A stretch of 64,000 bases of DNA. Source: Gimesia benthica (GTDB taxonomy: Bacteria; Planctomycetota; Planctomycetia; Planctomycetales; Planctomycetaceae). A program made the translations under genes and the position numbers. Every line of letters starts with the position of its first letter. Position 1 is the stretch's first letter. The stretch covers positions 6,708,001 to 6,772,000 of the forward strand of contig NZ_CP043930.1 in NCBI RefSeq assembly GCF_009720525.1, read 5' to 3'. The notes under the pieces were generated by a model. The model was given only the letters and a program-made list of their open reading frames with translations, was not told the origin of the DNA and searched no databases. Below are positions 3,422-22,388 of this stretch, one piece after another.

Positions 3422-4198
3422 ATGATCCGCGTTCAAAACCTCACACGTATTTTCGAAGCCGGAAAACAGGATGTTCTGGCCGTCGATCATATTTCGTTCG
3501 CAGTCGAAGCAGGGGAGGTCTATGGTTTGCTGGGACCCAATGGTGCCGGTAAAACTACAACGCTCCGCATGATTCTCGGCCTGCTCAAGCCCACCAGTGG
3601 CGATGCCGAAGTCGAAGGCTTTCGCGTCTCGACGCATCCCGACGAAATCAAACGGCGGGTCGGCCTCGTCTCAACCAGTGCTGGCTTGTACCAGTGGTTG
3701 ACACCCCGCGAGATCCTCTTTTTTTTCGCTGACGTCTATGGCGTCTCCGCAGCGCAGGCGGAAGACCGCATCCAGCGACTGTCGGATTTGTTTCGGCTCT
3801 CTGAATTCCTCGATCGTCGTTCTGCCACTTTAAGTACCGGTCAGAAGCAACGCGTGAATCTGGCCCGTTCCCTGATCCACGATCCTCCTGTGATGCTGAT
3901 GGATGAACCAACCCGCGGACTGGATGTGGTCGGCAGCAAGGTCATCTTCGATTACATCGATCATCTCCGCGATGAAGGCAAGGCCGTCATCGTCTGCACA
4001 CATCGCCTGGATGAAGCCGAGCAACTCTGCGATCGGTTCGGGCTTTTATACCAGGGTAAGAAAAGCTACGAGGGCACACTGGAAGAGCTGCAGCAATGCA
4101 CTTCCTGTCAGACATTAACCCAGATCTTCCTGCAACTGCTGGATGCGCCTGTGACAAAATCGAAAACAGTCGCCGCGGCACAGGGGGAACTGCTTTAA
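3422..4198 (+). CDS. natA: ABC transporter ATP-binding protein, NatA type
   Basis: This 258-aa ATPase subunit probably powers export together with the permease encoded just downstream. All catalytic motifs are intact: Walker A GPNGAGKT (38-45), signature LSTGQ (137-141), Walker B ending in D161-E162, and switch His194 in '[10 protein letters not shown]'. The sequence resembles the sodium/drug export subunit NatA and the general ABC-2 class. AAGGG lies five bases before the ATG. The stop overlaps the next start (TAATG at 4196-4200), so the two are translationally coupled. The exported substrate cannot be read from the sequence, and the symbol is by resemblance only. Confidence 0.85.
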
Positions 4199-6429
4199 TG
4201 GTGTCGCCCTACGATCAGGACTCGGATCACCGGATCTACACTCCCACGACCGGTTTTCGCTTTTCGGGTCTGTTGAAGAAAGAACTGCGCGAAATTCTCC
4301 GCGACCGCCGCACCGTGATCACCTTGATTCTGATGCCGCTGCTGGTCTATCCACTGCTTGGTCTTCTATTGCAGAAGTTTTTTTTGAGCCAGATGAGCCA
4401 GCTCAGCAAAGTGGAATACCGGATTATTCTCCCCAACGAATCAGAGGGGCAGCTGTTTCGCGCCCTGCTCACCAAGGGGAACCGTCTGCTGGCAACCAAT
4501 CCCGGCATGTCGCCTGTCGAACAGAAATCCGCTGACGACGAGCAGCCCCTGGCCCGCTTTCAAAGGGTCGACCCGGTAATCAAGTTTCTGATCGCCGACA
4601 GTACGGGGGAAAATCAAAACATTTCGAAACTGGTCCGCGATGGTCTGGTCGATGTGGGGGTACGTTACATTCCCATCGACACTGCGCAGGCAGATCAGGC
4701 CGACGAGAGACACAGTGGCCGTTTTCAGATTACCTACGGCGCACAGTCGCCCCACAGTCGACGGGCCGCGGAATATGTCGAGAAACGTCTGCAGGCCGTA
4801 CGCTGGAATTACCGCGACCAGATGCTGACAGAAATGGGAAAAAGCGACACCGTTCCGTTCATCGCGACGTTTGAACCGGTAAAGTCCGAGATGCGACAGG
4901 GGGCTTCCCTGGTGACGTTCGTCCCCATGATTCTGCTGCTGATGACGATGACCGGCGCCGTCTATCCCGCAATCGACTTGACCGCCGGCGAACGCGAACG
5001 TGGAACACTGGAAACCCTAATGGCCGCGCCGTTACCCCGCATGTGGATTCTGTGTTCCAAGTTTTTCGCCGTCCTGGCAGTGGCGACTCTGACGGCAATT
5101 GTCAATATGGTGGCGATGCTGGCGACCGCGTACGCAAATGGTCTGGAGGGGATGCTGTTTGGCGAAGGGCTGACGCCGGTCGTCTTAATGCAGATTCTGT
5201 TACTCCTGTTGATCTTCGCCGGCTTCTTCTCTGCGGTCCTGCTCTGTATCACCAGCTTTGCCCGCAGCTTCAAAGAAGCACAGGCCTACCTGATTCCGCT
5301 GATGCTGATCTCGATGGCCCCCGGGGTCATCGGCCTGGTGCCCGACCTCAAAATGACGCTGCTCTGGGCGGTGATTCCCCTGGCGAATATCGTACTGCTC
5401 AGTCGCGATTTTTTACTGCACCAGGCGCAGCCCACACTGTTTTTTGTTTCGGTCTTTTCCACGGTCTTCTACGGGGTGGTTGCTCTCAGTCTGGCCGCCC
5501 GGATTTTCGGCACCGATACGATTTTGTATCAAAGCGAAGCTTCCTGGAGCGATTTTTTCAAGCGTTCCACCAAAACCCATGCTGCCCCCGCACTGAATAA
5601 TGCGGTGCTCTGTCTGGCGGTATTGTTTCCGGTGTTCATCCTGTCCGCTGCATTTATCAGTCGGCTGCAGGAACTGTCCATGGCGATGCGACTGCTGGCA
5701 TCAGGCACGCTCACCTTCTGTCTGTTCCTGCTGATCCCACTCTTGTTTGCCTGGCTGGGTGGTGTGAATCTGAAGTCCGGCTTTCGATGGAATCGTCCCC
5801 GACCGCTGGCCTGCGTGGGAGCGGTCCTGCTGGGATTCACGCTCTGGCCGATGGCTTACGAGATCGAGATCTTTGCCCTGACAGACTATCGCATTGAAGT
5901 CCTCACGAAACTATTCGATTCAATGAAGCTGGAACTGGAGCTGGTACCACTCTGGATCAAGCTGATCAGCCTCGCGGTACTCCCCGCGATCTGCGAAGAG
6001 CTCTTCTTCCGCGGTTACCTGTTGAGCGGTCTGTTGAACCGATTTTCGAGTACCAAATCGATTTTCATTTCGGCATTTCTGTTCGCACTGTTCCACGTCA
6101 TCGTGCGTGATTCCCTGTTTATCGAGCGGTTTTTCCCCAGCTTCTTCATGGGGATCTCACTGGGATATGTCAACGTTCTTTCGCGAAGTGTGATTCCCGG
6201 GATCCTACTGCACATGTTGCACAACGGTCTATTGATCACCTTCGCCAGCTATCAGCACTACTTCTCACAATGGGACATGAACCTGCAGGATCAGAAACAT
6301 CTACCCCTCTTCTGGCTGATCGTTTCCCTCTGTTCTATCGTGGTCGGATTCGCGCTGATTTATTTCAGTAGTCGCAGCCAGAAGACAGACGAGTCACTGG
6401 TCAGCGTCACTCCTCCGAGGGCCGGTTAA
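4198..6429 (+). CDS. NatB-type ABC-2 permease fused to a CPBP (CAAX protease-like) domain
   Basis: The start at 4198 overlaps the NatA stop and gives 743 aa; the frame is open further upstream, but inside natA. Residues 1 to about 400 form an ABC-2 permease: 'FSGLLKKELREILRDRRTVI' before TM1, a large extracytoplasmic loop, then 'DLTAGERERGTLETLMAAPL' before the second membrane block. The C-terminal part (about 520-730) is a multi-span CPBP domain with all its motifs: E600-E601-xxx-R605 in 'EELFFRGY', His633 in 'ALFHVIV', and His672/His675-Asn676. CPBP proteins include CAAX-type and bacteriocin-immunity intramembrane proteases. The intact motif suggests, but does not prove, protease activity. 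Confidence 0.85.
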   Translation: MVSPYDQDSDHRIYTPTTGFRFSGLLKKELREILRDRRTVITLILMPLLVYPLLGLLLQKFFLSQMSQLSKVEYRIILPNESEGQLFRALLTKGNRLLATNPGMSPVEQKSADDEQPLARFQRVDPVIKFLIADSTGENQNISKLVRDGLVDVGVRYIPIDTAQADQADERHSGRFQITYGAQSPHSRRAAEYVEKRLQAVRWNYRDQMLTEMGKSDTVPFIATFEPVKSEMRQGASLVTFVPMILLLMTMTGAVYPAIDLTAGERERGTLETLMAAPLPRMWILCSKFFAVLAVATLTAIVNMVAMLATAYANGLEGMLFGEGLTPVVLMQILLLLLIFAGFFSAVLLCITSFARSFKEAQAYLIPLMLISMAPGVIGLVPDLKMTLLWAVIPLANIVLLSRDFLLHQAQPTLFFVSVFSTVFYGVVALSLAARIFGTDTILYQSEASWSDFFKRSTKTHAAPALNNAVLCLAVLFPVFILSAAFISRLQELSMAMRLLASGTLTFCLFLLIPLLFAWLGGVNLKSGFRWNRPRPLACVGAVLLGFTLWPMAYEIEIFALTDYRIEVLTKLFDSMKLELELVPLWIKLISLAVLPAICEELFFRGYLLSGLLNRFSSTKSIFISAFLFALFHVIVRDSLFIERFFPSFFMGISLGYVNVLSRSVIPGILLHMLHNGLLITFASYQHYFSQWDMNLQDQKHLPLFWLIVSLCSIVVGFALIYFSSRSQKTDESLVSVTPPRAG

Positions 6430-6566
6430 AGCATTTTCTGTCAGTCCTGCTTTCGCTGTCGTTTTATAACCGGTAGGATAAATAAGAGAAATACTGTCAG
6501 CTTCACAGTGAGTTGCAGTTGGCAATCTCCTGCTTCATTGTCTCGGATCGTCTTGAGGAGTCTACC

Positions 6567-8120
6567 ATGTTGCGCCCGCTTGTCTGTTGTCTCTTGTTGT
6601 GTCTGAGCCCCGGATTGCTTTCGGCGGCTGAACAGCAGCGACCGAATATCGTGGTCATCCTGGCCGATGATTTTGGTGTGGGTGATATCCAGGCACACTA
6701 TCCGGACAACAAAATTCCAACTCCGTATCTCGACCGCCTGGTAAAGCAGGGGATGAGCTTTACTGACGCCCACAGTGGTTCGGCGGTCTGTACTCCCACA
6801 CGCTATGGACTTCTCACGGGCCGCTATGCCTGGCGAACGCGACTGCAGGAATGGGTGATCGCCGCTTACGAACCTCCGCTGATCGCTGCTGACCGACTCA
6901 CTTTTCCCGGGTTTCTTAAGTCACAGGGTTACACAACCGCCTGTATCGGAAAGTGGCACTTGGGATGGAACTGGCCGGGACCGCAGCCCAGCCAAATGAC
7001 GGAGAAACGCAACGGTCAGTGGCAACTGAACTGGGACTTTACCAAACCGATTTCGGGGGGACCGGTTGACCGGGGCTTCGATTATTTCTTCGGCGTCGAT
7101 CTGCCGAATCTGCCTCCGTTTACCTTTATTGAAAACAACCGGGTCTTTCCACAGCCCACAGCCAAATTTCAACCCGATCCCGCAGAGGGAATTGTGTTGC
7201 CCAAAGCGTTCACCGGCGCTCCGGCGGCACCCGACTGGAAGATGCAGGAAATTCTCCCCGAATTAACCCGGCGGGCAGTCAAGTACATCGAACAACAAGC
7301 GACAGAAAAGAAACCATTCTTTCTTTATTTTTCGATGACATCACCGCATGAGCCGGTGGTTCCCTCACCTCCCTTCCGTGGCAAAAGTGGCATCGCCCCC
7401 GTGGCTGATTTCGTGATGGAAACCGACTGGTCCGCAGGTCAGGTCATTCAGGCCATCGATCAGGCGGGACTGGGCGAGAACACCGTGGTGATCTTCACTG
7501 CAGACAATGGCCATTCGCATTACACGGGCTGGAATGATCTGATCAAAGCCGGTCATCGCCCCAGCGGTCCTTATCGCGGACATAAAGGCGATGTCTGGGA
7601 GGGGGGGCACCGTGTTCCACTGGTCGTCCGCTGGCCCGGAAAAGTACAGGCGGGCGGCAGCAGTGACCAGCTGATCTGCCTGACGGATCTCCTGGCAACC
7701 AGTGCTGATCTGCTGGGAACAAAATTACCCGCAGCCGGTGCAGAAGACAGCCTCAGCTTTTTCCCCGCATTGCAGGGAAAAGCGTCGGACGGCTCACGTA
7801 CGTCAGTGGTTAATCATTCGAACTTTGGTGAATTTGCCTACCGGGATGGTCCCTGGAAACTGGTGTATAAACTGAGCGGACGCAATCTGGAAAAGTCGCG
7901 CGGCAAGCCGACGATCGCAGAGCTCTATCACCTGCAGTCTGACATCGCGGAAGAGCAGGATCTGTCACAGAAACATCCGGAACGGGTCAGACAGATGACA
8001 GCCGACCTGCAGGCATTGATCGACCGGGGCAGCAGTCGCCCGGACCAGCAAAGTAAAAATGACGGACAAGTCGAATTCAAGACAACTCAAAAGTTGCGCT
8101 GGGCACCAGTCAAAGATTGA
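6567..8120 (+). CDS. secreted type I sulfatase
   Basis: This is 517 aa from ATG 6567, with GAGGAG six bases upstream; an in-frame start at 6513 lacks such a site. A signal peptide is followed by 'RPNIVVILADDFGVGD', whose Asp pair binds calcium, and then by the active-site motif Cys75-Thr-Pro-Thr-Arg. There the Cys is converted to formylglycine by an FGE that is not in this window. 'IGKWHLG' and 'FTADNGHSHYTGW' are further family landmarks. It probably removes sulfate from algal or other polysaccharides in the periplasm, but the substrate cannot be told. It converges on dinB with a 21-bp gap. Confidence 0.92.
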   Translation: MLRPLVCCLLLCLSPGLLSAAEQQRPNIVVILADDFGVGDIQAHYPDNKIPTPYLDRLVKQGMSFTDAHSGSAVCTPTRYGLLTGRYAWRTRLQEWVIAAYEPPLIAADRLTFPGFLKSQGYTTACIGKWHLGWNWPGPQPSQMTEKRNGQWQLNWDFTKPISGGPVDRGFDYFFGVDLPNLPPFTFIENNRVFPQPTAKFQPDPAEGIVLPKAFTGAPAAPDWKMQEILPELTRRAVKYIEQQATEKKPFFLYFSMTSPHEPVVPSPPFRGKSGIAPVADFVMETDWSAGQVIQAIDQAGLGENTVVIFTADNGHSHYTGWNDLIKAGHRPSGPYRGHKGDVWEGGHRVPLVVRWPGKVQAGGSSDQLICLTDLLATSADLLGTKLPAAGAEDSLSFFPALQGKASDGSRTSVVNHSNFGEFAYRDGPWKLVYKLSGRNLEKSRGKPTIAELYHLQSDIAEEQDLSQKHPERVRQMTADLQALIDRGSSRPDQQSKNDGQVEFKTTQKLRWAPVKD

Positions 8121-11925: not shown

Positions 11926-12069
11926 GAGCTTAGCTTATCAGAGACTGGGCAGAGCCGTTTTTTCAGAACCGGACCGGTTATTGTTACCGGTTCAGGTCGG
12001 AGTGATGAAAGAATCGGGCTAAATTGCCCGGGAGTCAGGCTCAGATTACTTCATTTTCAGCAGTATACC

Positions 12070-13842: not shown

Positions 13843-14046
13843 ATGCTTGTATTATCACGTAAGCCCGGCGAGCGGATTCGGATTGGCGATGACGTAACCC
13901 TGACGATTGTTCGAATTGGTCCCAATTCTGTGCGATTAGGAATTGATGCTCCGCGCAGCATGAGCATTGTTCGCGAAGAATTGTGTATCGACTTTTCAGA
14001 CTTGCCGGAATCAGGCCAGCTGACTGAAGAGCCTTCTTCGCATTAA
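13843..14046 (+). CDS. csrA: carbon storage regulator CsrA
   Basis: This 67-aa RNA-binding protein of the CsrA/RsmA family blocks or stimulates translation by binding GGA motifs in mRNA leaders. The start 'MLVLSRKPGERIRIGDDVTLTIVRI' is canonical, including the RNA-contacting Leu4 and the Arg6 region. The second RNA-binding segment 'RLGIDAPRSMSIVREEL' has the conserved Val-Arg-Glu-Glu core. AAGGA (13827-13831) is the likely ribosome site. No flagellar gene or fliW is next to it, unlike many bacteria. Its leader carries probable CsrA sites (see the upstream region), which suggests autoregulation. Confidence 0.95.
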   Translation: MLVLSRKPGERIRIGDDVTLTIVRIGPNSVRLGIDAPRSMSIVREELCIDFSDLPESGQLTEEPSSH

Positions 14047-14168
14047 AACAGTACGACCGAAGTCTCTATTCATTTCTCAGGGCTTAAAGTCCCTTCTGAT
14101 CGTACTGTCTCCGATCAACATTTTTACGCTCATTAATTTACGGTCTCTTGCTAGAGAGGATATCGGCC

Positions 14169-14480
14169 ATGTGTGCTGATCCTCATCAATCCGGTTCATC
14201 GACGGATCTGATCAGTCTACGCGCGATCTATGCGGGGCGGGTGCAGGGCGTCGGGTTTCGATATCGCACAACTCAACTGGCGGAGCGTTACCCTGTTACC
14301 GGATTCGTCAAAAATCTGTCTGATGGAACCGTGGAACTGGTCGCGCAGGCCCATGATCAGTCAGTACTCGATCGGTTTTTCGATGATATGATGCTGACAT
14401 TCGCAACGAATGTGACGGATGTATCGATTCAAGGGGCCCCGGCCGATCCCGGTCGTCAAAGTTTCACCATCGAATATTGA
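14169..14480 (+). CDS. acyP: acylphosphatase
   Basis: This is 103 aa from ATG 14169, with AGAGAGGA eight bases upstream; the TTG at 14148 is less likely. The enzyme hydrolyses carboxyl-phosphate bonds. The phosphate-binding loop 'GRVQGVGFR' with catalytic Arg31, and Asn49 in '[16 protein letters not shown]', are both present. The length is near the usual 90-100 residues, with about 15 additional N-terminal residues. It lies 122 bases after csrA in the same direction. Confidence 0.93.
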
Positions 14481-14869: not shown

Positions 14870-15796
14870 ATGGGAAACCTGCTGGTATTGGCTGCTGAGA
14901 CGACAAATCTGACAGTGCAATGGTGGATTACCGGAATCGGAGTGGCAATCTATTTTGTACTCCTGTTCGGTGTGACTTCGATGACCCAGGCGGGTGTAAT
15001 CGCCAGGGCGACGACGAAGGAAGCCATTCGCCAGCCCGTGTTCCTCTTGCTGATGGCACTGGGTTTAATCCTGCTACTGTTAAATACGTTTCTCCCTTTC
15101 TTTTCGATGGGGGATGACGTCAAGATGCTGATGGACTGTGGTCTGGCCACGATCCTGATCTGCAGTCTGTTGCTGGCTGTGTGGTCGGCGAGTACCAGTA
15201 TCGCTGATGAAATTGAAGGTAAGACAGCCATGACGCTGTTGTCAAAGCCGATCAACCGTCGTCAGTTTATCGTCGGGAAATACCTGGGAATTCTGAAGGC
15301 CGTCGTCTGGCTGATGCTGCCGATGGTGATCACTTTCCTGCTGCTGGTTTACTTCAAAGTCGGCTATGATGCCCGCGAAGCGGCCCAGGAACCGCCAACG
15401 CACGCCGAGCGGATGGCTGCGGTCTGGTTGATTCTGCCCGGGATTCTGCTGATCTATATGGAAGTCGCCATTCTGGCCGCCATCAGCGTGGCGATCTCGA
15501 CGCGTCTGCCCATGATGGTCAACATGATTATCTGCTTCGGCGTCTATATCATTGGCCACCTTACTCCCAACCTGGTTCAGGCCAAGGCGGAGGGGCTGGA
15601 ATTCGTGAAGTTTACCGGGCAGTTGATTGCTACGATTCTGCCCAACCTGGATAACTTCAATATGTCACCTGCGGTTGCAACGGGAACCGTGGTTCCACCT
15701 GTCTATATCGGTCATTCCGCATTAAGCTGCCTGCTCTATTCCGGAATTGCGATTCTGGTTGCCTTCATCCTTTTTGAAGACCGGGACCTTGCCTGA
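14870..15796 (+). CDS. ABC-2 type transporter permease
   Basis: This is a 308-aa polytopic membrane protein. 'ATTKEAIRQPVFLLLMALGLILLLL' near the N-terminus, 'DEIEGKTAMTLLSKPINRRQFIVGKYLGI' before the third membrane span, and the overall layout of six spans fit the ABC2_membrane_2 class. Such permeases need an ATPase partner. None with intact motifs lies next to it; the following gene is ABC-like but degenerate. The 46-bp gap to that gene supports one operon. The substrate is unknown. Confidence 0.8.
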   Translation: MGNLLVLAAETTNLTVQWWITGIGVAIYFVLLFGVTSMTQAGVIARATTKEAIRQPVFLLLMALGLILLLLNTFLPFFSMGDDVKMLMDCGLATILICSLLLAVWSASTSIADEIEGKTAMTLLSKPINRRQFIVGKYLGILKAVVWLMLPMVITFLLLVYFKVGYDAREAAQEPPTHAERMAAVWLILPGILLIYMEVAILAAISVAISTRLPMMVNMIICFGVYIIGHLTPNLVQAKAEGLEFVKFTGQLIATILPNLDNFNMSPAVATGTVVPPVYIGHSALSCLLYSGIAILVAFILFEDRDLA

Positions 15797-15842: not shown

Positions 15843-17960
15843 GTGGGTCCTGTGTCAAATCGTCAGCCCAACGCATTCCATCGCGCGTTCCCCGCGCGGG
15901 AGTTTTTTCGTGGGTCTGCCAGATCCGTTGTGTTCTGGTCGTTCATCAATGGCCTCTTGCTGGCGTTTCTGCTCATCCTGTTTTTCCTGATCCTGGATCT
16001 GCTGGATCATCGGGGGCAGATTTCGGTGCAGGGGGTAGAGCGAGTTCAGCAACTGCAGGAAATCCTGACCAGTCCCGAACCAGAAGCACCTGCTGAAACC
16101 ACCGAACCATCCGAAGAACCGGCTGAGCCGAAAGCCGATACCGACGAAGTTGCTGCTGTGGAAGAAAAGCCCGCGTCTGAACCGGAGCCGAAAGCGGCTC
16201 CCGCGGACTCACAACCAGCGACTACCCCAGATCGTTTGGTCCTTTCCGATACGGGGATTCTGCCCTCCGTCTGGTGGACGCATTCCAAATACCATCTGGG
16301 GATCATGAAAAGCGTGTATCAACGCGTCCCCTTGCTGCAGCAGAATCAGTCCGCGTTATTCACACTGATTTTAGTCGCGCTGGTCGTGGCCAGCATCCGG
16401 GTTTTGATCCGCTGGCGATGCCGACTGCGGAGCCTGAAGGTTTCCCATCATATTTCGACAACGTTACGCAATATGATTCATCGCCAGGCGCTCCGCCTGG
16501 GCCCCGGGGATCTTTCGGGGAAAGAGACCGACCAGGCATTTCACCTGTTTATTCAGGATGTGGGAACCGTACAGAACGGTGTCTTCCACTGGGTCTACGG
16601 TTTGACGCGGCATACTGTGACGCTGGCGATTCTGCTGTTGATTGCCGTTTCCATCGACTGGCGTTTAACGCTGCAGTGCATCATTCCGCTGGCCGCAGCC
16701 TGGTATTTTCTGATGCAGCATCGCAAAGATTACGATTTGCAGCATGCCAGAACACTGGTTACCATCGACACCGAACTTTCCCTGCTCGCCGAGAATCTGC
16801 GGAGCACACGCCTGGTCCGTGGCTATGGAATGGAAAACCCGGAGCATGAACAGTTTCAGAAGCATCTGGCGAAATACACCGAAAACCTGGAAAAGCTGAA
16901 ACGCGTTGAAGGCTGGGGACATCGTATTGCCCGGGGCCTGGCCGTCTTCTGTTCCTGCCTGGTCGTCTTTCTGGTGGGGTATAAAGTCCTCGTGAATCCG
17001 GATAGTCTGCCGCTCTCTGCAGCGGTGCTGGTGGTCGGGATCTTCGGCTTCTTCTACCTGCCGGTCAACGGTCTGCATGAACTGTTCCGTGTGCGCGAAG
17101 AATCCACTGTGGCTGCCAGCTCGATCTATCGTTATCTGAACCTGATCCCCGAAGTCGGGCAGGCAGTCGGAGCGAAATTTCTGGAACCGATGTCGACGGC
17201 ACTGCAGTTCGAAAACGTCAATTACAGTCTCACGCCCAGTTCACCTCCGATCTTGAATGGCTTTGATCTGAAAATTCCCGCCGGTTCGACAACCGCACTG
17301 GTATCACTGGAGAAGCTCGCCCCGCGCGCTGTCAGTTTCCTGGTACCCCGCTTTATTGAGCCCCGCTCGGGCCGGGTTCTGATCGACGGCGAAGACACGG
17401 CGTGGGTGACCCTGGAGTCTCTGCGGGCGGAAGCGATTTTTGTTAGCGGTAACGATCCCTGTCTCACCGGAACCGTCAAGGACAATATTCGCTGTGGCGA
17501 TGAACGGTATTCGCTGCAGGAAGTCATTGCGGCTTCAAAAGAATCACACGCGCATCAGTTTATCCAGGGACTGCCTCAGGGGTACGAAACCGTGCTGGGT
17601 CAGCACGGGGAAGATCTGACAACGGGTGAGTGTTTCCGATTAGGACTGGCCCGCGCCCTGTTACGAAAACCGGCTCTGATGATCATCGAAGAACCGGAAG
17701 GGCCGCTCGACGAAGATACCAAAACGCTGCTCGAAGATGCCTACTCCCGGATTTTCCAGAACCGGACCGTGCTGGTCATTCCTTCCCGTATCACGACCCT
17801 GCGACGCGTCGATCAGGTCGTCATGATTCACGAAGGCAAAGTGGAAGCGGTCGACAGTCAATCGAACCTGTTGAAGAAATCCGCCCTGTATCGTCACTGG
17901 GAGTACACACGATTTAACCAGTTCCGGCACTCACAGGATACTCCGATCGAAGAACGTTAA
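15843..17960 (+). CDS. ABC exporter-like protein with a degenerate nucleotide-binding domain
   Basis: This is 705 aa starting at GTG 15843 or 15852. TM1 (about 28-53) is followed by a Pro/Glu/Ala-rich stretch (77-130) not found in ordinary exporters. The remaining membrane block (170-415) and an ABC-type domain (about 452-690) then follow. By eye alignment every ATPase motif is altered. The Walker A region is SLEKLAPRA (488-496), with Pro494 at the Lys position. The signature is LTTGE (592-596). Walker B has Glu616 instead of Asp. The switch His is Ser648. It has the fold of an MsbA-like half transporter but is unlikely to hydrolyse ATP. It may be a scaffold or regulatory partner for the upstream permease (inference). 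Confidence 0.8.
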   Translation: MGPVSNRQPNAFHRAFPAREFFRGSARSVVFWSFINGLLLAFLLILFFLILDLLDHRGQISVQGVERVQQLQEILTSPEPEAPAETTEPSEEPAEPKADTDEVAAVEEKPASEPEPKAAPADSQPATTPDRLVLSDTGILPSVWWTHSKYHLGIMKSVYQRVPLLQQNQSALFTLILVALVVASIRVLIRWRCRLRSLKVSHHISTTLRNMIHRQALRLGPGDLSGKETDQAFHLFIQDVGTVQNGVFHWVYGLTRHTVTLAILLLIAVSIDWRLTLQCIIPLAAAWYFLMQHRKDYDLQHARTLVTIDTELSLLAENLRSTRLVRGYGMENPEHEQFQKHLAKYTENLEKLKRVEGWGHRIARGLAVFCSCLVVFLVGYKVLVNPDSLPLSAAVLVVGIFGFFYLPVNGLHELFRVREESTVAASSIYRYLNLIPEVGQAVGAKFLEPMSTALQFENVNYSLTPSSPPILNGFDLKIPAGSTTALVSLEKLAPRAVSFLVPRFIEPRSGRVLIDGEDTAWVTLESLRAEAIFVSGNDPCLTGTVKDNIRCGDERYSLQEVIAASKESHAHQFIQGLPQGYETVLGQHGEDLTTGECFRLGLARALLRKPALMIIEEPEGPLDEDTKTLLEDAYSRIFQNRTVLVIPSRITTLRRVDQVVMIHEGKVEAVDSQSNLLKKSALYRHWEYTRFNQFRHSQDTPIEER

Positions 17961-17975: not shown

Positions 17976-18563
17976 ATGGATACACTTCACTCTCCGGTAG
18001 TCGAGAACGCCATTCGGGTTGCCGCGGAAGCACATAAATCTCAAAAACGCAAGTCGTCCGGAATTCCTTACATCGCACATCCGATGGGGGTCTGTCTGAT
18101 CCTGGTGAAAGCCGGCTTTCATGAGGAATCCATCCTGGCAGCTGCCGCCCTGCATGATGTGGTCGAAGATACCTCGCTGACTTTTGAGGATCTGGAGGGA
18201 ACCTTTTCAGATGAGGTCCTGCACTACGTCAGGGAGATGACCGAAGAGAAGGAAACTCAGGAGGGCGCAAAGCGGAGCTGGCGCGATCGCAAGCGGGATC
18301 ATATTGAGGTGATGCAGCAGGCATCACTCGGCGCGCGGGCGATTGAGCTCGCAGACAAACTGCATAACCTGGAAGCGATGCTGTTTGATCTGCAGACCGA
18401 AGACCGCGCTGAATTCTGGGGGCACTTCGGCGCCCCGCCGGAAGAGATTGTGCAGTATTATCATTCCATGATCGAGGCCGCCGGTCAGTCCGATGAACGT
18501 CTGGTCCCGCTGGTAAAAAACTGCCTGTCTCGCCTGGATGAGTTACAGAAACAGATGCCATAG
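17976..18563 (+). CDS. HD-domain protein, stand-alone alarmone (ppGpp) hydrolase-like
   Basis: This is 195 aa consisting of one HD domain of the SpoT/MESH1 kind. His35 ('YIAHP'), His60-Asp61 ('ALHDVVEDT'), Glu64-Asp65 and Asp127/Asn131 ('LADKLHNL') match the metal and hydrolase residues. No synthetase, TGS or ACT domain follows, so it would be a small alarmone hydrolase that removes pyrophosphate from (p)ppGpp. Another nucleotide substrate is possible. It begins 15 bases after the degenerate ABC gene and is probably cotranscribed with it. Confidence 0.82.
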   Translation: MDTLHSPVVENAIRVAAEAHKSQKRKSSGIPYIAHPMGVCLILVKAGFHEESILAAAALHDVVEDTSLTFEDLEGTFSDEVLHYVREMTEEKETQEGAKRSWRDRKRDHIEVMQQASLGARAIELADKLHNLEAMLFDLQTEDRAEFWGHFGAPPEEIVQYYHSMIEAAGQSDERLVPLVKNCLSRLDELQKQMP

Positions 18564-19391: not shown

Positions 19392-20960
19392 ATGTCATTT
19401 CGAATCTTCTCACTGCTGACGCTGTTCCTGGTTTGCCTCCTGCATGGTCATTCTCAGCTCCGGGCCGACAAACCCAATGTGATCGTAATCATGGCCGATG
19501 ATCTCGGGTACGGGGACGTTTCCTGTTATGGCGCGACAGCGCTCAAGACACCTCACATCGATCAACTGGCAGCTGACGGACTGCGGTTTACCAGCGGATA
19601 CTGTTCCGCTTCGACATGCACGCCGACCCGCTATTCGTTCCTGACCGGGACCTATGCCTTTCGGGGAAAGCGGACCGGAATTGCGCCACCAAATGCACCG
19701 GCCATTATTAAGCCGGGAACAGAGACCGTCGCTTCTCTGTTGAAACGCGCCGGCTATACCACGGCCGTAATCGGTAAATGGCACCTCGGGCTCGGGGGAG
19801 AAGCGGGACCGGACTGGAACGGAGATTTGAAACCGGGGCCACTGGAGATCGGTTTTGATACCTGCTTCCTGTTGCCGACAACCAATGACCGGGTTCCTCA
19901 GGTGTATGTGAAAGATCACCGGGTTCTCAATCTCGATCCGGCAGATCCCCTCTGGGTGGGAAATAAGAAGCCCAGCCCAGATCACCCGACCGGCCTCACA
20001 CACCGTGATACGCTCAAGATGGACTGGTCTCACGGGCATAACTCAACGATTCACAATGGAATCAGCCGCATCGGCTTTTATACAGGCGGGTATGCGGCTC
20101 GTTTCCGCGATGAGGATCTGGCCGATAAGTGGGTTGAGAAGTCGGTCGAATTTATCGAAGCCAATAAAGATCAACCCTTTTTTCTGTTCTTCGCCTCGCA
20201 CGATATTCACGTCCCGCGCATGCCTCATGAACGGTTTCAGGGAAAAACATCACTCGGTTATCGCGGCGATTCAATTATTCAGCTCGACTGGTGTGTGGGT
20301 GAGCTGATGAAAACACTCGATCGTCTCAAGCTGGCTGAGAACACGCTCGTCGTATTCTGTTCCGATAACGGTCCTGTGATGGATGATGGTTACAAAGATG
20401 GTGCGCTGGAGAAAGTAGGAGATCACCGCGCTGCCGGACCATATTCCGGGGGCAAGTACAGTGTTTATGAGGGGGGAACCCGGACGCCCTTTATTACCCG
20501 CTGGAAAGGGCGTATCCCGCATGGTGTCAGTGATGAGCTGGTCTGTACTATCGATTTGCCAGCCAGCCTGGCAACATTGACCGGACAGAAACTGCCCCAG
20601 GATGCCTGTCGAGACAGTTTCAATGTGCTGGATGCACTGCTGGGGAAACCGGATGCTGCAGGGCGTGCGCATCTCGTGCAACAGAATAACGGGAACAACG
20701 GCACGTATGCCTTGCGGACCGGGAAATGGAAATTACAGCGGTACGACAAACAGACCGCCCGCAATATCATTGTCGAGCAGCAGCTGTCAAACACCAAAGT
20801 CCCCCAATATCAGTTGTTCGATCTGGAGCAGGATCCTGCGGAAAAGCAGAACGTCATCCAGGCACATCCGGAACTTGCACAGCGGTTGAAAAAACAGCTG
20901 GCCGATCTGATCGAGCAGGGGAGCAGCCGACCCGGTGCCGTTGCACCTGCAGAGAAATAA
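19392..20960 (+). CDS. secreted type I sulfatase
   Basis: This is 522 aa. A signal peptide ends near 'HSQLRADKPN'. 'VIVIMADDLGYGD' gives the calcium ligands and the active site is Cys76-Thr-Pro-Thr-Arg in 'SASTCTPTRYSFLTG'. 'IGKWHLGLGG', 'FFASHDIHVPR' and 'FCSDNGPV' complete the family signature. It most resembles the arylsulfatase-like enzymes that planctomycetes carry in large numbers for sulfated polysaccharides. Its stop codon is directly adjacent to the stop of the opposing sulfatase at 20961, with no gap. Confidence 0.93.
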   Translation: MSFRIFSLLTLFLVCLLHGHSQLRADKPNVIVIMADDLGYGDVSCYGATALKTPHIDQLAADGLRFTSGYCSASTCTPTRYSFLTGTYAFRGKRTGIAPPNAPAIIKPGTETVASLLKRAGYTTAVIGKWHLGLGGEAGPDWNGDLKPGPLEIGFDTCFLLPTTNDRVPQVYVKDHRVLNLDPADPLWVGNKKPSPDHPTGLTHRDTLKMDWSHGHNSTIHNGISRIGFYTGGYAARFRDEDLADKWVEKSVEFIEANKDQPFFLFFASHDIHVPRMPHERFQGKTSLGYRGDSIIQLDWCVGELMKTLDRLKLAENTLVVFCSDNGPVMDDGYKDGALEKVGDHRAAGPYSGGKYSVYEGGTRTPFITRWKGRIPHGVSDELVCTIDLPASLATLTGQKLPQDACRDSFNVLDALLGKPDAAGRAHLVQQNNGNNGTYALRTGKWKLQRYDKQTARNIIVEQQLSNTKVPQYQLFDLEQDPAEKQNVIQAHPELAQRLKKQLADLIEQGSSRPGAVAPAEK

Positions 20961-22388
20961 TTAAAACAGAGCCGGCTTCATCTGCGAATTAAGTTCGTTC
21001 CAGCGGGTGAGCAGTTCCTGCAGTTTGTCCTGCTGCTCGCTGGCGAGATTGGTCTGTTCCGACAGATCCTCTGTGATGTGGTACAACTCCCAGTCTTTGA
21101 TGTCGGATTTGCCCCGCATTTTGACAATTTTCCAGTCCCCCAGTCGGAGTGCAGCTCGTTTGCCCTGACGCCAGAAAAGCTCGTGATGCGGCGTACCGTC
21201 TTTTTCTTTCAACAGGTACGGCATCAGGTTTTCACCATCCAGATCGTCCGGCAGCGGTGCACCGGAGAGAGCTGCCGACGTGCTGAAAAGATCCATGCTG
21301 CTGACTGGCTGCGAATAGGTTTGGCCTGCAGGTAACTTATCTGTCCAGCGCATCAGAAAGGGAACCCGCAGCCCTCCTTCGTACATGGATCCCTTCTCGC
21401 CACGCAGAGGAAGATTACTGGACGTGAGTTCGCGCGTCGGGCCGCCGTTGTCACTTAGAAAGACAATCAACGTGTTGCGATCCAGTTTGGCATTTCGGAC
21501 CTGCTTCAGAATCTGACCGACACTTTGATCCAGGGAAGAAAGCATGGCGGCAAAAATGCGTCGGTGCACATCGTCAATGTTTTGAAAACGCTGCATGTCC
21601 GCCTGTTTCCCCTGCAGGGGGCTGTGAACTGCGTTATACGCCAGGTAGAGAAAAAAGGGTTTGTCCTGGTGGCGATCGATAAAGCTGAGCGCTTCCCGTG
21701 TGAACGCATCGGTCAGGTATTCCGTTTCCACAACCGGTTGTCCGCCGCGAATGATGGGGTTGTTGGCGTCATAGTCGGGTTCATCGTATCCCAGATGCGT
21801 TGAGTAAATCAGCTGTTCGCCAATCCAGCGCCCCTTGCTTCCACCGGGAAGTGTCTTGCGACGCAGCATGGTTGTCACCCCCTGATACGGCGGCGGGACG
21901 AAGTAATGCCCTTCGTGCATGAAGCCGAAGAATTCGTCGAATCCATGGCGGTAGGGATGATAGTCGGCAGCGCCCCCCAGATGCCATTTTCCGATCAGGC
22001 CGGTCGTGTAACCCTGATCGTGCAGAAGTTCGGCCAGCGTCTGTTCTGCGGGCGGCAGCCCCGTACCCGGATCTTCATTGCGGGCACCGATGGGATTGAA
22101 TTCATAACCGAAGCGAGTCGGGATCTTGCCCGTCAACAGTCCCGCCCGTGACGGACTGCAGTTAGGCGCGGTGACATAAGCCTGTGTAAAACGAATGCCC
22201 TCCTGGGCGAGTGAGTCGATATGTGGCGTGGGGATTTGCGGATTTCCCTGGCAGCCCAGTTCTCCGTAACCCAGGTCATCGGCGAGTAGGATGATGATGT
22301 TGGGCTGTTCTGCTGCCCGCAGAGAGGGATCTGTTGCCACGGGGGACAGGATGAAACTGAGTAGAAACAGGGAGACGATCAAACGCAT
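20961..22388 (-). CDS. secreted type I sulfatase
   Basis: This is 475 aa with a signal peptide. 'IIILLADDLGYGELG' precedes the active site Cys77-Ser-Pro-Ser-Arg in 'APNCSPSRAGLLTGK'. 'IGKWHLGGAADYHPYRHGFDEFFG' and 'FLSDNGGPTREL' fit the arylsulfatase A / N-acetylgalactosamine-sulfatase-like branch, which is distinct from the neighbour at 19392. The two are therefore not a simple tandem duplication. The Cys needs an FGE encoded elsewhere. Confidence 0.93.
   Translation of the reverse strand: MRLIVSLFLLSFILSPVATDPSLRAAEQPNIIILLADDLGYGELGCQGNPQIPTPHIDSLAQEGIRFTQAYVTAPNCSPSRAGLLTGKIPTRFGYEFNPIGARNEDPGTGLPPAEQTLAELLHDQGYTTGLIGKWHLGGAADYHPYRHGFDEFFGFMHEGHYFVPPPYQGVTTMLRRKTLPGGSKGRWIGEQLIYSTHLGYDEPDYDANNPIIRGGQPVVETEYLTDAFTREALSFIDRHQDKPFFLYLAYNAVHSPLQGKQADMQRFQNIDDVHRRIFAAMLSSLDQSVGQILKQVRNAKLDRNTLIVFLSDNGGPTRELTSSNLPLRGEKGSMYEGGLRVPFLMRWTDKLPAGQTYSQPVSSMDLFSTSAALSGAPLPDDLDGENLMPYLLKEKDGTPHHELFWRQGKRAALRLGDWKIVKMRGKSDIKDWELYHITEDLSEQTNLASEQQDKLQELLTRWNELNSQMKPALF

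Follow-up and report, generated by a model that had tools for sequence, protein, structure and literature searches.

Genes and sequence features at the locus

The window (the whole stretch of 64,000 nucleotides that was analysed) carries, at 15843..17960, a reading frame open over exactly this span, as long and intact as had been described in the original prediction, which encodes 705 amino acids from a putative GTG start. ORF analysis, Pfam, the predicted structure and Foldseek identified the product as an ABC exporter of the MsbA type, with Walker A, the Q-loop, the signature, the Walker B Asp and the switch His all substituted (hereafter, the dead exporter). Pfam placed ABC_membrane at residues 167-389 (E 7e-12) and a partial ABC_tran at residues 504-618 (profile positions 34-135 of 137, E 4e-8), with the P-loop strip outside the latter match. 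The usual order of a membrane domain followed by the nucleotide-binding domain (NBD) fold was borne out by Pfam, the predicted structure and Foldseek. The model (pLDDT 89.2), in which the NBD fold is kept, had MsbA, TM287/288 and TmrAB as its closest folds. Fold and domain order were those of the type IV exporters MsbA, Sav1866 and ABCB, with 18-26% sequence identity in the 50 top-ranked Foldseek hits, and MsbA was also the best NCBIfam model, with 198 of the 602 bits required.

The features of this gene and its neighbours are all on the + strand. The predicted structure starts with helix TM1 (residues 24-56; 15912..16010), followed by the TM1-TM2 loop (residues 61-135; 16023..16247), which includes a Pro/Glu-rich part and probably lies on the extracytoplasmic side, and by the remaining type IV exporter membrane domain (residues 166-432; 16338..17138; Pfam PF00664 and model). 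Conservation defined a family-specific linker, QAVGAKFLxPL (residues 440-450; 17160..17192), in which Q440, A444 and F446 were conserved in 84%, 96% and 85% of 79 family rows, respectively. The NBD-fold domain (residues 451-682; 17193..17888; Pfam, conservation and predicted structure) is followed by a conserved C-terminal tail, YRHWEYxxFN (residues 683-697; 17889..17933), whose residues R684, H685, Y688 and F691 were conserved in 89-92% of the same 79 rows. The TM1-TM2 loop was the fastest-evolving part of the protein, and its residues 90-124 were modelled with a pLDDT below 50. Its Pro/Glu segment had been called foreign to ordinary exporters, which proved overstated for what is a minor feature: a long hydrophilic segment at this place was seen by eye in several ordinary planctomycete exporters, and its Pro plus Glu share was 0.19-0.40 in the genus vs. 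0.10-0.28 in other relatives (rows with at least 50 aa there).

Alignment located each residue of the former ATP site. The Walker A position (residues 488-495; 17304..17327) reads SLEKLAPR, with Pro494 in place of the Lys; the Q-loop Gln is replaced by Gly536 (17448..17450); the signature position (residues 592-596; 17616..17630) reads LTTGE; the end of Walker B (residues 616-618; 17688..17696) is EEP, with Glu616 instead of the Asp, the catalytic Glu617 kept and Pro instead of Ala; and Ser648 (17784..17786) occupies the position of the switch His. Pro494, LTTGE, Glu616 and Ser648 had all been correctly read in the original prediction; its wider statement that every ATPase motif was broken held for the motifs it named, to which the Q-loop must be added, but not for Glu617 and the D-loop Asp623, both of which are retained. 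The dead exporter differs from MsbA, Sav1866 and ABCB in lacking Walker A, the LSGGQ signature, the Walker B Asp, the Q-loop Gln and the switch His, with just the catalytic Glu left, and in having the family-specific linker, the EEP motif and the C-terminal tail. Intact motifs hidden elsewhere in the chain, which alignment was expected to reveal if they existed, were ruled out: no Walker A pattern was found along the entire 705 residues, and the Walker A and signature regions were gap-free in two alignments against solved ABCB exporters.

Three genes accompany the dead exporter. An ABC-2 permease of 308 aa with a NosY-like fold (14870..15796; PF12679, model, Foldseek and synteny) ends 46 nt before the GTG. 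A protein with an HD domain, akin to the RelA/SpoT hydrolase half (17976..18563; Pfam, NCBIfam comparison and neighbourhood clusters) starts 15 nt past the stop; it may be a small alarmone hydrolase, going by its sequence, and its gene likely belongs to the same operon. An acylphosphatase-like gene (14148..14480; matches below curated cut-offs), often found upstream of the permease, is itself preceded by a gene for a CsrA-like carbon storage regulator (13843-14046), whose scores narrowly miss the NCBIfam cut-offs (63 of 73 and 62 of 70 bits). No Rfam family reached its gathering score between positions 12000 and 20000, and promoter and terminator counts were within the scatter of shuffled sequences.

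Motif losses and distribution in relatives

Of 126 aligned rows, 89 were classed as full-length family members and 27 as ordinary exporters; the other 10, which are fragments (L030, L053, L117, L118, L121, L122, L123, L125, L127 and L180), were dropped before motifs were counted. Walker A (GxxGxGK[ST]) was present in none of the 89 family members and in all 27 ordinary exporters; LSGG[QEA], sought at any position, was matched by 2 family members and 26 ordinary exporters; and a single family member, but every ordinary exporter, had the Walker B Asp. The catalytic Glu was universal in both groups (89/89, as Glu617, and 27/27), and EEP emerged as a new family motif (73 of 89 members; xEP in 86 of 89). 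The sorting relied on the same motif table as these counts, so that the motif count alone is partly circular, and the motif-free tree and the permease linkage described below matter as independent support.

The remaining residues were lost less uniformly: the Walker A Lys was kept in 24, the Q-loop Gln in 27 and the switch His in 27 of the 89 members. All three were retained together in 11 of 14 members from family f2, 6 of 14 from f3 and 2 of 4 from f8, and none of the 47 members from f1, the taxonomic family of the window, kept any of them. The simplest reading of these sequences is a graded loss: the Walker B Asp would have disappeared initially, together with the signature and the glycine loop, and the remaining residues afterwards, in the family of the window.

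The gene was present in all 16 same-genus genomes (13 complete copies at 72-98% identity; in pieces in G005, G010 and G015) and in all 8 same-family genomes (38-47% identity). A profile built from 69 members matched 198 of the 297 genomes of the class (E 1e-128 or better); the best match in one of them, G066, was an ordinary exporter (L128), which leaves the dead exporter in about 197 of 297 genomes, a score-based figure. Motifs were actually read in the 89 full-length members, the 10 fragments and two doubtful matches (G252 and G278, both devoid of Walker A and the LSGG signature and carrying EEP), the remaining genomes being assigned by score; none of the family members read had the canonical motifs. 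The gene was rare or absent in several families (two f5 genomes and none from f7, f11 or f15 in the match list). In a phylum sample of 294 genomes, the sole match outside the class (E 1e-130 or better; L120 in G355) had intact motifs. A scan of contigs from other genomes added one relative, from a Planctomycetaceae MAG (L046), together with an ordinary exporter (L047) and a short match (L048). In one fragment (L123, genome G263) the reading frame departs from the family pattern past the signature region, perhaps through a frameshift or decay. The search for planctomycete orthologues with the same losses, proposed with the original prediction, thus found them throughout the class, and the copy in the window is not a sporadic mutant.

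Phylogeny, selection and conservation

In a tree calculated without the motif columns (“quick” method, using 63 of the family's 89 full-length rows; two rows, L052 and L054, were long), a single branch separated the 63 family rows from the 27 ordinary exporters (SH-aLRT 100). Convergent loss in unrelated exporters is not favoured by this topology.

The dead exporter is under strong purifying selection. Nei-Gojobori dN/dS values, several of them rough because dS exceeded 1, were 0.014-0.059 for the NBD in 8 of 9 same-genus pairs (the ninth was saturated), 0.010-0.093 for the membrane domain in the nine pairs, and 0.13-0.33 for the TM1-TM2 loop in the seven usable pairs. Broken motifs would be expected in a decaying pseudogene or a sequencing artefact, a reading refuted by the open frame, the purifying selection in the genus and the losses shared family-wide, and to which we give a negligible probability; conservation in both genus and class excludes chance or local decay. 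The original statement that the gene is not simply decaying is borne out by the same losses across the class, their one origin and this selection.

Mean conservation among 79 less redundant members was 0.59 for the NBD and 0.40 for the membrane domain, compared with 0.65 and 0.52 in the 27 ordinary exporters. The NBD is the better conserved domain in ordinary exporters as well, so these values indicate that it has been kept and are not, alone, proof of a new role. The relaxation was concentrated in the 16 ATP-site columns (0.47 in the family vs. 0.90 in ordinary exporters); outside them, the NBD was conserved about as in ordinary exporters (0.60 vs. 0.64). Several positions were family-specific or more strongly conserved than in ordinary exporters: the linker QAVGAKF, T523, S526, K566, EEP at 616-618, D/E631-D632, R636 and the tail YRHWEYxxFN. 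With the active site lost and other conserved positions gained, a binding or scaffold role is the best explanation.

A rival reading is a site rebuilt for another ligand or nucleotide, which would make the protein a sensor: Glu617 is invariant, and EEP, A496, D/E631-D632 and the strip P647-R649 are conserved in a family-specific form. The Walker A strip, however, varies widely between lineages, unlike a maintained binding pocket, and we regard a rebuilt sensor as improbable. Nucleotide sensing in particular is improbable given the loss of the nucleotide site, though residual nucleotide binding is possible in those lineages which keep Lys, Gln and His.

The upstream permease and the gene neighbourhood

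An ABC-2 permease lay upstream of 75 of 88 family genes (same strand, at most 1.5 kb away), in 53 of these 75 with no more than 100 nt between the frames, and upstream of 62 of the 75 genes that were left once the other same-genus rows were removed; it was absent from all 27 ordinary-exporter loci (flanks of about 0.1 to 7 kb). Thirteen of the 88 family loci had no upstream permease. One match each to the permease was found in 286 of the 297 class genomes, vs. about 197 with the dead exporter, so the permease does not need the dead exporter and their association is not obligate.

The permease model (pLDDT 81.4) has a NosY-like fold: Foldseek ranks 1-11 were all NosFY, NosDFY or NosDFYL chains, with TM-scores of 0.49-0.57 by query length and E values from 5e-5 to 4e-4 among the nine best, and at the sequence level the NosY chain of 7o0y was weakly matched (E 0.0039). 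Its C-terminus, FEDRDLA, was nearly invariant (17 aligned members), and its dN/dS in same-genus pairs was 0.011-0.041. Unlike NosDFY, in which a NosY-type protein has its own ATPase encoded alongside, the permease has no constant NosF-like neighbour. Of 37 permease neighbourhoods, some of which end at contig ends, just 4 had an NBD with intact Walker A, at a distance of 1.8-7.3 kb, and 13 short loci had no NBD of any kind; 16 further neighbourhoods, 12 of them outside the dead-exporter match list, likewise had the permease without a constant ATPase partner. A classical permease-plus-ATPase operon was therefore rejected. At one locus (L200), the ATPase upstream, which we take to be LolD-like, is followed by a presumably TolC-like protein and was assigned to another system.

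A passive conduit is the main rival to a scaffold or regulator: standing alone, the protein would still move or flip lipid or another substrate passively through its membrane domain, without ATP, the dead NBDs would hold the dimer together and the permease would be incidental. The complete exporter membrane fold of the model, the purifying selection on the membrane domain and the separability of the permease are all consistent with it. However, conservation of the membrane domain falls below that of ordinary exporters, the NBD outside the ATP site is conserved about as well and has new family-specific positions, and the permease is linked at 75 of 88 loci; on this balance we consider a conduit unlikely, if less so than a rebuilt sensor.

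Other neighbours were less regular. Of 25 neighbourhoods, 8 had the HD-protein cluster downstream of the exporter, and five of these 8 are from the genus. The acylphosphatase-like cluster (c6) occurred in 13 of 25 neighbourhoods and, by eye, directly beside the permease in 6 of the 16 further ones; a gene of this type lies near the permease in many lineages, including those without the dead exporter. Longer permease frames of about 485-702 aa were seen in families f5, f11 and f21 (L185, L186, L187, L192, L195, L199 and L200); most of these genomes are without the dead exporter, and the extra N-terminal region might substitute for something. Elsewhere in the window, an ABC permease at 4096-6429, presumably fused to a CPBP-like intramembrane protease, lies downstream of an ABC ATPase match at 3485-3913, and three sulfatase-like genes occur within 16 kb (6513-8120, by eye; 19392-20960 and 20961-22388, by Pfam). 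Sulfatase genes are common in planctomycetes.

Comparison with degenerate ABC exporters and ABC regulators

To our knowledge, all degenerate ABC exporters known so far keep at least one functional ATP site per dimer. The dead exporter resembles TM287/288, TmrAB, TAP and MsRv1273c/72c in departing from the ATPase consensus. It could be paired with an ordinary exporter encoded elsewhere and supply the degenerate half of the resulting heterodimer, on the model of TmrAB or TM287/288, both of which are among its closest folds, and two related full-length exporters with intact motifs are encoded in its own genome. Exporters with one degenerate site are well studied and, in a review (PMC7756269), are described as retaining one working site per dimer, the degenerate site having taken over a structural and mechanical role. 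By its motifs, however, the dead exporter has lost every site half, on the signature side as well as on the Walker A/B/His side, so no composite ATP site could be complete with any partner. There is also no adjoining gene for an intact exporter half, the neighbours being the ABC-2 permease and the HD protein; in the neighbourhoods examined no ordinary exporter was directly adjacent, though L050 has one about 5 kb off and L057 another NBD-bearing ORF about 8 kb off. A heterodimer with an intact exporter is disfavoured on both counts, and we judge it as improbable as the rebuilt sensor.

A conceptual likeness exists with SUR1 and SUR2 of KATP channels, ABC proteins that serve as regulatory subunits of another membrane protein. 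SUR still binds nucleotides. The dead exporter also differs from SUR in that its link to the permease comes from gene order alone. No exporter family without any ATP site was described among the matches listed in a literature search covering few subscription journals.

Proposed role of the dead exporter

The reading that we prefer, with slightly better than even confidence, is that an exporter lost the ability to bind and hydrolyse ATP on a single, early occasion in the planctomycete class and was retained as a pseudo-transporter. It would act as a scaffold or regulator, the upstream NosY-like permease being its most likely target. The same dead site recurs in many planctomycete species, usually beside the same permease gene, which points to a scaffold or regulator rather than a pump. 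Two copies would form an exporter-shaped dimer whose NBDs could not be closed by ATP, so that the dimer would not cycle. The NBDs may instead offer a fixed cytoplasmic docking platform through the invariant Glu617 with EEP, the linker and the C-terminal tail. The most likely client, to judge from gene linkage, would be the NosY-like permease, itself probably powered by an ATPase encoded elsewhere. Since the permease persists in genomes without the dead exporter, a regulator or assembly factor is indicated rather than an essential subunit.

“Pseudo-transporter”, one of the possibilities raised originally, is supported by the class-wide losses, the single tree branch and the purifying selection. 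The suggestion of a partner or sensor of the permease fared less evenly: gene order (75 of 88 loci) speaks for a partnership, which we infer from it, and the wider occurrence of the permease (286 vs. about 197 of 297 genomes) and the 13 loci without it speak against. More specifically, the sequences raise the possibility of a nucleotide-independent bacterial family of exporter-fold dimers, their NBDs always free of ATP, that serve an ABC-2 (NosY-type) permease as its regulatory or assembly subunit, a proposal that we put forward tentatively and with rather more doubt than confidence. If true, a single complex would combine two different ABC membrane folds and would be the bacterial equivalent of SUR, though free of nucleotide control.

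About two thirds of the sampled genomes of the class carry a member of an exporter family that has lost every ATP site with its NBD fold still strongly constrained. Its graded losses are a natural test of NBD function without ATP, and the family provides a lead to the assembly or control of a class-wide permease which has no adjoining ATPase gene.
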